64,000 bases of DNA, taken from contig NZ_SOEZ01000006.1 of NCBI RefSeq assembly GCF_004402215.1, forward strand, positions 1-64,000, written 5' to 3'. This stretch comes from Cryobacterium tagatosivorans. Lineage in GTDB: Bacteria > Actinomycetota > Actinomycetes > Actinomycetales > Microbacteriaceae. A program made the position numbers and the translations under genes. The notes below the pieces were generated by a model. It had not been told where the DNA came from and did not search any database. It was given only the letters and a program-made list of their open reading frames with translations. This document shows, in pieces, positions 1,831 through 62,766 of the stretch. How positions within the stretch are numbered: the first letter of the stretch is position 1; each line of letters begins with the position of its first letter.

Positions 1831-1865
1831 CGCCAAGCTCGCCGAGGCCTGGACGCGGCTCAACT

Positions 1866-1920
1866 GAGTCGCGGACAAAGTACCTTCCCGAGCCAAATGA
1901 AGGTACTTTGTCCGCAACTC
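1866..1920. repeat. 55-nt near-perfect palindrome between convergent menC and ccsB
   Basis: Two 22-nt arms (1866-1887 and 1899-1920) are reverse complements with a single mismatch and enclose an 11-nt loop. The arm core is GCGGACAAAGTACCTTC. It sits between the convergent ends of menC and ccsB, so it can act as a bidirectional terminator, though there is no clear T-run. Its length and perfection also resemble a dispersed palindromic element of the kind seen at 8049-8111, but the two arm sequences are unrelated. Confidence 0.75.
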
Positions 1921-1948
1921 AGCGGCATCCTGATCGAGCTGGTCGAGA

Positions 1949-8039: not shown

Positions 8040-8048
8040 CCCGTCCCC

Positions 8049-8111
8049 CCGCGAAACCGCAGTTGTGCACGTTATGCGCGTGTTCTAGCGCGCACAACTG
8101 CGGTTTCGCGG
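8049..8111 (-). repeat. 63-bp palindromic repeat, copy 1 (inverted relative to copy 2)
   Basis: Perfect 20-bp arms (8049-8068 and 8092-8111; arm core CGAAACCGCAGTTGTGC) enclose a 23-nt loop. The reverse complement of the loop matches the loop of copy 2 (9089-9151) at nearly all positions, so the two copies are the same element in opposite orientation. This copy lies between the end of aspS and the nuclease gene and can fold into a very stable hairpin, so it may also terminate aspS transcription. Confidence 0.88.
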
Positions 8112-8163
8112 CGGGCTGTGGACAGGTTCGGCGCGCGCGGACGGAAAAAGGCATCATGTCCGG

Positions 8164-9105
8164 GTGCGAAACCGAACGATCCTCCCAGTCCCGCTCCGCG
8201 GACGCGCGTTCCTGACCACGGATGTCCCGCCGGAAACCCTCGGGCGAGGCCGGCTGCTCGCCCCCGATGTGCAGCGACCATCCCGCGGCGTGCGCGCGAT
8301 CGACCTCGACTTCACGGCCATCCACGGCCGGTGCGAGGGCTACCTGCCGCGGATGCCCGCCGGCCAGGCGTTCAGCCACGTCACGGCGGCGCAGCTCTAC
8401 CTGATCCCCCTCCCGCCGTTCCTCGCCGGCGACCAGACCATTCACGTTGCCGTGAACGAGCGCCGGCAACCGCCGCGGGTCGTCGGCGTGGTCGGGCATG
8501 CGCTCGGCGGAATCGAGGCCGCGTTCCGGGAACACCACGGGTTTGTGGTGACCGACCCGGTATCCACCTGGTGCCAGCTATCCACCCTGCTCACGCTCTA
8601 CGACCTCATTGCCGCCGGCGACTTCCTCGTCTCCGGACGGGTCACCGACGCCGGCCGCGAGCCCCCGCTGGCCACGATCGCCGAGCTGCGGGCCGGTGTG
8701 CTGCGGCACTCCGGCCGACGCGGCGCGAAGAACCTGAGGGAGGCGATCGGCAGGGTGCGCACCGGCGTGGATTCGCGCCCGGAGACGTGGCTGAGGCTCA
8801 TCCTCGTCGATGATGGCTTGCCTGAACCGGTCGTCAACGAGGCCGTGTTCGACGGCGACGGGCGGCGCCTCGGGAAACCCGACCTCGCCTATCCGTGGGC
8901 TCGCCTCCTGTTCGAGTACGAAGGCGACGGGCACCGGGTCAGCAAGGAGCGCTTTCGCGGGGACATCACGAGGCGCGAGACCTTCGAGGCCGACCGGTGG
9001 CGGGTCATCCGGGTGGTCCCCGACGACGTTTTCACGAACCGGCGGGCGTTCCTCAACCGCGTGCGGCGCGTCCTCGCCCAGCAGACCCCCGCGAAACCGC
9101 AGTAG
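8164..9105 (+). CDS. Vsr/DUF559-like endonuclease-fold protein flanked by palindromic repeats
   Basis: This 313-residue protein resembles the actinobacterial family with a FSHVTAAQLY segment near the N terminus, a VSTWCQLSTLLTLYDLIAAGD segment in the middle and a C-terminal DUF559/Vsr-like nuclease domain. Candidate PD-(D/E)xK-type residues are Glu207 (RPETW), Asp240 (KPDLAYP), Glu251, Glu253 and His257 (FEYEGDGH). Activity is inferred, not shown. GTG 8164 has no Shine-Dalgarno sequence, but CATCAT sits six bases upstream, so a leaderless start is possible. The last codons and the TAG lie inside the downstream palindrome copy. A second copy in opposite orientation lies 52 bases upstream. Host benefit, mobility or a role in defence cannot be read from the sequence. 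Confidence 0.75.
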   Translation: MRNRTILPVPLRGRAFLTTDVPPETLGRGRLLAPDVQRPSRGVRAIDLDFTAIHGRCEGYLPRMPAGQAFSHVTAAQLYLIPLPPFLAGDQTIHVAVNERRQPPRVVGVVGHALGGIEAAFREHHGFVVTDPVSTWCQLSTLLTLYDLIAAGDFLVSGRVTDAGREPPLATIAELRAGVLRHSGRRGAKNLREAIGRVRTGVDSRPETWLRLILVDDGLPEPVVNEAVFDGDGRRLGKPDLAYPWARLLFEYEGDGHRVSKERFRGDITRRETFEADRWRVIRVVPDDVFTNRRAFLNRVRRVLAQQTPAKPQ

Positions 9106-9151
9106 TGCGCGCTAAAACACGCGAATAACGCGCACAAGTGCGGTTTCGCGG
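9089..9151 (+). repeat. 63-bp palindromic repeat, copy 2
   Basis: Arms 9089-9108 and 9132-9151 pair at 18 of 20 positions, and the pairing continues inward for 3 more base pairs. Length is identical to copy 1, in opposite orientation. One of its two mismatches changes the arm sequence GCAGTTG to GCAGTAG and creates the TAG stop of the nuclease gene at 9103-9105. It also lies just beyond the end of the minus-strand Dabb gene and could stop transcription from both sides. Confidence 0.88.
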
Positions 9152-9174
9152 AGGGGGGAAGGGGAGGAAGGGGG

Positions 9175-36733: not shown

Positions 36734-36757
36734 TCCGTCCTTCATTCGGAGTAACGC

Positions 36758-36843
36758 GGGTCACCAGTGACGGGCACTGGTGACCCACGTGCCTCATTCG
36801 TTGTGCCGCGGGTTACCAGCGAGGGGGATCACCGGTAACCCGC
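36758..36843 (-). repeat. two stem-loops between binding-protein and permease genes
   Basis: The first, 36758-36786, has perfect 12-bp arms (GGGTCACCAGTG and CACTGGTGACCC) with a 5-base loop. The second, 36808-36843, has perfect 10-bp arms (GCGGGTTACC and GGTAACCCGC) around 16 bases. In ABC operons such hairpins usually stabilise the upstream message and lower permease expression, as at the malE-malF junction. No T-run follows, so both are probably not full terminators. Confidence 0.7.
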
Positions 36844-41686: not shown

Positions 41687-42535
41687 TTATCCCTTGACGG
41701 CCCCGGCGGCCATGCCTGAAACGACATAACGCTGGAAAATGATGGCGACGATGAGCGGCGGAAGGGCAGCGAGGATGCCGCCGGCCGCGACGAGCCCGAA
41801 GTCGGTCGTGTAGCGACCGGCGAATTCGCTGATGGCCACCGGAAGCGTCTTCGCGGCATCCGACGACGTGAAGATGAGCGCGTACATGAACTCGTCCCAC
41901 GCCAGCAGAAACGAGAACATGATGGCCGCGAAGATGCCGGGTCGAGCAGCGGGGAGCACCACCCAGAAGAGCGCGCCCAGACGGGTCGTGCCATCGATGC
42001 GCGCCGCTTCCTCGAGTTCGTCCGGAATCGTCATGAAGTAGTTGCTGAGGATCCAGAGCACGAACGGGATGACGAGCGCACAGTCAACGAGGATGAGCCC
42101 GGTCGTTGTGTCGAGCAGGCCGAGCGAATTCAGGATGAGGTAGAGGGGGATCAGAAGCGCGATTTGCGGGAGCATGTAGGTTGCGAGAAAGACCATCAGA
42201 GTCGCGCGACGGAAGCGAAAGCGCAATCGTGCGAACGCATACGCGCCCAGGATCCCGACGACCATGGAGATGGTGACGGTACCGACGGCTACAACAGCGG
42301 AGTTCACCATCGCGGCACGGAACGTCGCGCCGACGCTCTCCGCACCACCGCTGAAGATCTGGATATATCGGTTAAAATCGAACTCTTCCGGGATCCAGCG
42401 AAGGGGCGTCGTGATCAGGACTCGCTGCGGCGTGATGCTCGCCATGACCATCCACGCGAACGGCGCGAGGATGAGGAGCGAGACGACCCCGGCTGCGGCA
42501 TGGATGAGGATCGAATTCCGGGTGGACCTCTTCAC
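41687..42535 (-). CDS. CUT1-type ABC importer permease (MalG-like), operon 2
   Basis: The 282-residue permease has six helices and the EAA loop LEEAARIDGTTRLGALFWVVLPAARPGI. It is the second permease of the amino-sugar importer. GTG 42535 overlaps the stop of the first permease (GTGA), so translation is coupled. The long upstream frame to 43054 is inside the first permease and is not used. The ATPase subunit is not encoded nearby. Paired with the SIS and BadF-type genes, it likely imports an amino sugar or its oligomers. Confidence 0.9.
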   Translation of the reverse strand: MKRSTRNSILIHAAAGVVSLLILAPFAWMVMASITPQRVLITTPLRWIPEEFDFNRYIQIFSGGAESVGATFRAAMVNSAVVAVGTVTISMVVGILGAYAFARLRFRFRRATLMVFLATYMLPQIALLIPLYLILNSLGLLDTTTGLILVDCALVIPFVLWILSNYFMTIPDELEEAARIDGTTRLGALFWVVLPAARPGIFAAIMFSFLLAWDEFMYALIFTSSDAAKTLPVAISEFAGRYTTDFGLVAAGGILAALPPLIVAIIFQRYVVSGMAAGAVKG

Positions 42536-62665: not shown

Positions 62666-62715
62666 TCAGTAACTCCGCCGACGCGGCCGTCGCGGCACGG
62701 GCGGGCGCATGAAAA

Positions 62716-62747
62716 AGGTGGGGGCACCCCGAAGGGTGCCCCCACCT
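62716..62747. terminator. bidirectional terminator between pucR and the permease gene
   Basis: Perfect 14-bp arms (AGGTGGGGGCACCC and GGGTGCCCCCACCT) with a 4-base CGAA loop are flanked by an A-run at 62712-62716. That A-run gives a T-run for minus-strand transcripts. It sits between two convergent genes. Confidence 0.88.
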
Positions 62748-62766
62748 GTGTGAGCCGCGGCGGCGG

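Follow-up and report, generated by a model that had tools for sequence, protein, structure and literature searches.

The window analysed here, 64,000 nucleotides of Cryobacterium tagatosivorans DNA, holds a nuclease gene between two palindromes. The locus raises the question of whether the enzyme and the repeats belong together and, if so, what kind of partnership they form. The original prediction saw a candidate REP-like or selfish unit in this arrangement.

The nuclease locus of the window

As originally predicted, two 63-bp palindromes bracket one nuclease gene, and at this locus the two copies are mutually inverted (Table 1). Over 74 nt, positions 8045-8118 and 9082-9155 show 89% complementarity, and copy 2 aligns to copy 1 better in the inverted (0.92) than in the direct (0.75) orientation. 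The upstream palindrome consists of two inverted half-sites with a variable centre between them and is separated from the start codon by 52 bp, and the downstream palindrome takes in the final codons of the gene together with its stop codon. Folding as single-stranded DNA yields -31.1 kcal/mol for the upstream and -27.5 kcal/mol for the downstream copy (z = -8.0 and -6.8, respectively; 200 shuffles each). The half-site GCGAAACCGCANTNGTGCGCG of family A is found at 5 places in the window with up to 3 mismatches, against 0.04 expected. Four of them, with at most 1 mismatch, coincide with the palindrome arms and the fifth, with 3 mismatches, is at 42215. The gene has aspS on one side and a Dabb gene on the other, with a glutaredoxin-like gene nearby. 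Two further strong hairpins of the window, at 62705-62758 and 36749-36795, have no family assigned.

Table 1. Positions of the nuclease gene, its modelled regions and the palindromes in the window
Feature	Position	Strand	Remarks
Solo palindrome, other family	1864..1922	.	59 bp; half-sites with 1 and 0 mismatches, 0.00 expected
Upstream palindrome, family A	8049..8111	.	63 bp; core of 59 bp, 8051-8109
Nuclease gene (P0001)	8164..9105	+	313 aa, GTG start, open
AbiEi-like region (DNA-binding fold, modelled)	8167..8760	+	residues 2-199
Region modelled like the I-Bth0305I catalytic domain and Vsr	8773..9090	+	residues 204-309
Downstream palindrome, family A	9089..9151	.	63 bp; core 9091-9149; inverted relative to the upstream copy

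The protein P0001 is modelled as an AbiEi-like N-terminal half joined to a Vsr-type PD-(D/E)XK C-terminal half, the nuclease and AbiEi folds being the top fold matches of the model. The predicted Vsr-branch fold comes with conserved acidic residues: among 88 homologues Ser204, Glu207, Arg211, Asp240, Tyr252, His257, Arg258 and Asp267 are 100% conserved and Glu251 is 98% conserved. I-Bth0305I and the Vsr endonucleases share the C-terminal fold with the model, whereas their N-terminal half is unlike that of P0001, and flanking and dispersed palindromes are a feature of the AbiEi-Vsr protein. RAYT (TnpA-REP) is an HUH tyrosine transposase of the Y1 (PF01797) type. A search of the window's genome gave no Y1_Tnp (PF01797) match at E<=0.001, with a control search ringing in 5 of 14 genomes, and membership in REP/RAYT was therefore rejected. 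The fold, the conserved residues and the lack of a Y1_Tnp match support the earlier assignment to a Vsr/DUF559-like PD-(D/E)xK nuclease and not to a Tyr transposase. In a Pfam scan of P0001 nuclease models alone matched, below threshold, the C-terminal half reaching 12.8 bits with DUF559 and 17.6 bits with REase_MTES_1575, both under the gathering scores. The MTES_1575 domain has been described as a novel Vsr-family REase (PMC3710099); the likeness of P0001 to this domain and to DUF559 is weak and C-terminal, and the accessible part of that article makes no mention of a palindrome partnership. With a dN of 0.059 and a dS of 0.310 against the C. psychrotolerans orthologue, the nuclease gene looks to be under purifying selection. 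Homologues occur in 51 of the 57 genomes of the genus (E<=1e-10). Among 297 genomes sampled from the order, 201 have one, and these cover 63 of 94 genera (E<=1e-15).

Palindromes around homologous nucleases

A palindrome was counted as flanking when it lay within about 250 bp of the gene. Among the 88 homologues, 48 have one upstream, 48 downstream, 31 on both sides and 65 on either side. The 94 control genes in the same loci score 15 on either side and 0 on both, with the palindromes counted for the nuclease left out, which lowers the control score where neighbours share one. By the strict test 23 homologues lack a palindrome, and a degenerate one is present in 5 of these. At 32 further loci, comprising the 29 top-scoring loci from the order-wide search (one lies in the genus) and 3 Arthrobacter plasmid loci, a palindrome lies on either side of 24 genes and on both sides of 14, against a local background of 6 hairpins in 81 kb. 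The check on the original prediction had asked whether palindromes pair with such genes; judged by sequence comparison they do, in a gene-specific manner and also beyond the genus Cryobacterium. The inverted orientation of the two copies is no rule in the nuclease family, as the flanking pairs of the 31 genes are direct in 19 cases, inverted in 8 and tied in 4. Compared with an insertion sequence and its terminal inverted repeats, the unit has palindromes as its ends, direct more often than inverted to each other, and no target duplication was seen.

Two single loci were also observed. A very distant homologue in the window's genome (L039, G000:C47:33762-37313; 27% identity) lies between two palindromes of about 60 bp with another sequence. 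In a genome of another genus (L266, G208) the homologue is located directly downstream of aspS, as in the window's genome (G000), C. psychrotolerans (G024) and G025, and has no palindrome by the strict test.

The palindromes upstream and downstream of one gene share a mean identity of 0.82 (31 genes, 3 of them below 0.7), in comparison with 0.47 between genes. Palindrome similarity tracks protein similarity with a Mantel r of 0.73 over 65 genes (0 of 2000 permutations). When pairs with homologous flanks are set aside, the remaining 1847 pairs give an r of 0.455 (calculated without permutation test). Under the same exclusion the 36 pairs with 55-70% protein identity have a mean palindrome identity of 0.64, versus 0.43-0.45 for pairs below 45%. 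One genome, G025, contains two paralogues that are 55% alike and carry two different palindromes: one paralogue is bracketed by CGCGAGATCGGAGTCGTGGTCG palindromes and the other is followed by a CGCGAGTGAGCAGTTGTT palindrome downstream. Both the pairing and the cognate specificity are supported by comparative genomics.

Dispersed copies, their positions and their size

The family-A half-site occurs 91 + 90 times on the two strands of the 3.78-Mb genome of the window at up to 3 mismatches, in comparison with 1 + 0 for the reversed pattern. About 90 palindrome copies are thus spread through the genome, and the palindromes do form a dispersed family, as the REP-like label had implied. At up to 2 mismatches the counts are 87 + 87 here and 83 + 84 in G024 (C. 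psychrotolerans CGMCC 1.5382), a close relative as judged by sequence identity, while the other 55 of the 57 genus genomes have 0-2 matches each, a background at the control level. The two carriers make up one lineage. Tandem or CRISPR-like arrays were ruled out, since the copies are dispersed.

Other families behave in a comparable way. Family 2, the cognate of the C71 nuclease of the window's genome, counts 51 + 51 half-sites in this genome and 40 + 43 in G024, and reaches at least 4 half-sites on a strand in 17 other genus genomes, many as variant forms. Family 3 counts 18 + 19 in G019 (control 0) and 7-13 per strand in G011, G027, G035 and G048; G048 keeps about 10 copies, and a search with P0001 found no homologue in it at E<=1e-10. 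A palindrome family of G025 has 11 + 12 half-sites (control 1 + 0). The solo palindrome of the window (Table 1) sits between converging enolase-superfamily and cytochrome c assembly genes, and its cognate nuclease lies elsewhere in the genome (G000:C19:6953-7876), flanked by palindromes of the same family in locus L038. Outside the genus, the palindrome family at the 3' end of the nuclease homologue L260 of Arthrobacter sp. StoSoilB13 has 37 places in 2 of 72,556 plasmid records, both of that strain, and none in the rest; a palindrome can match both strands, and the sites are perhaps half as many. The same test for Arthrobacter sp. ERGS1:01 gave 4 places, and the flanking copy would account for two of these. 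A plasmid- or phage-borne element was rejected, as protein relatives are found in 4 of 72,556 plasmid and 1 of 50,697 phage records (E<=1e-5). The window palindrome has no match among the plasmid records at E<=0.01, and its half-site occurs at one exact place in viral contigs.

By a rough home-made codon-score gene finder, the 136 copies of families A and 3 lie between convergent genes in 60 cases, between co-directional genes in 63 and between divergent genes in 7; a further 2 fall within an ORF and 4 are at the edge of a locus. As a background, the adjacent gene pairs of these loci divide into 75 convergent, 167 co-directional and 50 divergent ones, and loci other than these give 26, 39 and 51, respectively. 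From stop codon to palindrome the copies have a median distance of 15 bp, and the upstream palindromes of the nucleases end a median of 67 bp ahead of the start codon.

The junction of aspS and the Dabb gene was compared in 28 relatives in search of empty sites. In 17 of them the gap is 14-370 bp and the unit is absent, 4 hold 1.0-1.35 kb of sequence, and 7 have Dabb outside the locus. One genome, G025, has its own nuclease at this junction. A homing endonuclease element inserts at a cognate target and has empty target alleles; intervals without the unit exist here, with no readable insertion boundary or target sequence. Neither palindromes scattered at random with no tie to nuclease genes nor flanks that are never empty and lack repeat specificity, the two outcomes held to speak against the original prediction, came true as a whole. 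Of 23 G024 palindromes examined, 15 share both flanks with a palindrome at the corresponding place of the window's genome, indicating that the spread is old or slow, and no fresh gain of a palindrome was seen in the genomes compared. These shared sites resemble the low-rate replication of REPINs by RAYTs (PMC8049555).

One convergent junction was followed through 30 genomes, 13 of which have a palindrome by the strict test; this threshold leaves 17 palindrome-free, some of which show one by eye. The palindrome matches those of the genome's own nuclease (0.85-0.98) in G019, G049, G024, G000 and G018, and is unlike the own nuclease palindromes (0.36-0.50) in G020, G001, G043 and G017. For G037, G035, G054 and G003 the comparison set held no own palindrome; by eye, that of G003 is of its own nuclease's family (nuclease row L165, outside the set). 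The gaps of G046, G014 and G041 at this junction are just 24-37 bp. The presence of different families at one junction in different genomes is suggestive of re-use or rewriting of sites along with changes of the nuclease. Judged by eye, a further palindromic family (TGCGACACGCCGTGTCG and variants) also takes up this junction in several genus genomes (L362-L367, L369). At another place in G024 (L117, 2281-3101), two palindromes bracket an F420-dependent NADP oxidoreductase-like gene, and the matching place in the window's genome (L081) has one palindrome and no such gene. Gain of a cargo gene or deletion between palindromes is possible.

The palindromes are constrained in size. A core of 59 bp was found in all 88 distinct family-A copies examined (65 from the window's genome and 23 from G024) with a finder that permitted 51-67 bp, and these copies have conserved arms and a varying centre. 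Among 48 distinct family-3 copies, 46 are 57 bp and 2 are 56 bp, and 74 of the 96 flanking palindromes are 55-65 bp long. At the 15 orthologous sites of the window's genome and G024, divergence is 3.8% in the arms, 18.8% in the centre and 9.5% in the adjacent flanks. The 30 flanks contain 66 indel events and the palindromes 0; at the rate of the flanks, the centres would have about 9. The indel counts, obtained by globally aligning 60-bp windows of fixed extent, may be too high, and some of the 15 pairs are in two-palindrome loci. The fixed size and the lack of indels in the palindromes point to two half-sites read at a fixed spacing on duplex DNA, and we infer that such a reading is favoured over a hairpin with a free loop.

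A candidate nuclease-palindrome partnership

AbiEi and Rv2827c are reported to bind 23-bp inverted repeats spaced by 3 bp (AbiEi) or 13 bp (Rv2827c), giving repeat pairs of 49 bp and of 23 + 13 + 23 = 59 bp, respectively, without cross-binding (PMC7319586). The likeness to P0001 lies in the modelled N-terminal fold and in the scale of the paired repeats. Compared with the AbiE type IV toxin-antitoxin system, P0001 is predicted to have the AbiEi-like two-domain fold plus a fused nuclease domain, and chromosome-wide dispersed repeats are a feature of the AbiEi-Vsr protein, in contrast to AbiEi systems. No AbiEii (DUF1814) toxin gene is adjacent at the window locus, the only locus annotated in this respect. 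Since the palindromes match the AbiEi and Rv2827c repeats in scale and look equally private, binding of the half-sites by the AbiEi-like half is likely; the Vsr-type half plausibly cuts at or near them, and repair may spread or homogenise the copies.

Similar to REP/RAYT, short dispersed palindromes occur here together with an enzyme gene flanked by the same family. REP/RAYT systems are described as having many short palindromes mostly downstream of genes and an enzyme gene with its own repeat beside it; the enzymes of a genome with several families are family-specific, and repeats persist without the enzyme (PMC3733652, PMC8049555). RAYTs are described as single-copy, vertically inherited and replicating REPINs at very low rates (PMC8049555). 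Each of these traits, namely copies downstream of genes, a bracketed, family-specific and vertically inherited enzyme and repeats that outlast it, has a likeness here. The difference lies in the enzyme, which by its model is a Vsr-fold nuclease with an AbiEi-like domain, and in the repeat, which is 57-63 bp with fixed spacing. No earlier description of this nuclease-palindrome partnership was found in the searches of open-access texts.

We propose a model that we consider fairly probable, in which the AbiEi-Vsr fusion nuclease recognises its own palindrome, a REP/RAYT-like partnership run by an unrelated enzyme, with cutting and repair spreading the copies. In the manner of AbiEi and Rv2827c at their 23-bp inverted repeats, the AbiEi-like half would bind both half-sites in duplex form, with each half-site occupied by one protein, and the Vsr-type half would nick or cut at or near the palindrome. 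Over long times, cutting and repair would copy solo palindromes to gene ends and keep the copies uniform. The palindrome-gene-palindrome arrangement would then form the autonomous unit, with the solo palindromes as non-autonomous derivatives, in parallel to RAYTs and REPINs. Cognate binding of the palindrome by the nuclease is very probable. Cleavage and mobility are what we infer beyond it: cutting at or near the palindrome is reasonably probable, and for cutting as the driver of the spread the chances are about even.

Among the rivals the strongest takes the protein as a regulator and the many palindromes at the ends of genes as its operator-like sites. The AbiEi-like half would repress its own gene via the upstream palindrome and, at gene ends, bind terminators or organise the chromosome, and the nuclease would be rarely used or directed against invading DNA. 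AbiEi-type proteins are reported to autoregulate via inverted repeats (PMC7319586), and the position of the upstream palindromes ahead of the start codon, the solo copies close behind stop codons with few at divergent pairs, and arms that are better conserved than flanks at orthologous sites would all suit operators or terminators. This rival poorly explains why flanking is as frequent downstream as upstream, why a palindrome with about 90 copies in its carriers drops to background in the other 55 of the 57 genus genomes, and why the catalytic residues are invariant in 88 homologues, and we consider it rather unlikely.

A role in defence or self/non-self recognition, with the nuclease attacking DNA and being restrained by the chromosomal palindromes in the role of decoys or licence sites, could draw on the origin of AbiEi in a toxin-antitoxin system and on a weak match of the homologue L211 to the PADLOC AbiEi model (15.4 bits). 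However, P0001 and the two other homologues among the four scanned gave no PADLOC match, the window locus is without a partner gene, and G048 keeps its family-3 copies without a detected homologue, which makes such a role improbable. That ordinary terminators or unrelated repeats stand beside a common gene by coincidence is very improbable: the palindromes do sit where terminators sit, but flanking pairs mostly match each other and palindrome sequence tracks nuclease sequence. Simple terminators were ruled out by this co-variation and by bracketing on both sides of 31 of 88 nucleases versus 0 of 94 controls.

There is an even chance, in our judgement, that the palindromes of these nucleases represent a widespread unrecognised class of mobile or formerly mobile actinobacterial repeats, in which AbiEi-Vsr nucleases have private double operators of about 60 bp copied to gene ends, an analogue of RAYT/REPIN with an independent origin from an antitoxin fold and a homing-type nuclease. 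Bacteria would then have evolved a partnership of an enzyme with private dispersed palindromes at least twice, with unrelated enzymes, and a second, independent system would be at hand for testing how REP-like repeats spread and persist. The many natural enzyme-site pairs would help to work out how AbiEi-type proteins recognise DNA. A candidate role would also emerge for a large group of functionally uncharacterised actinobacterial nucleases, present in about two thirds of the genomes searched in the order.
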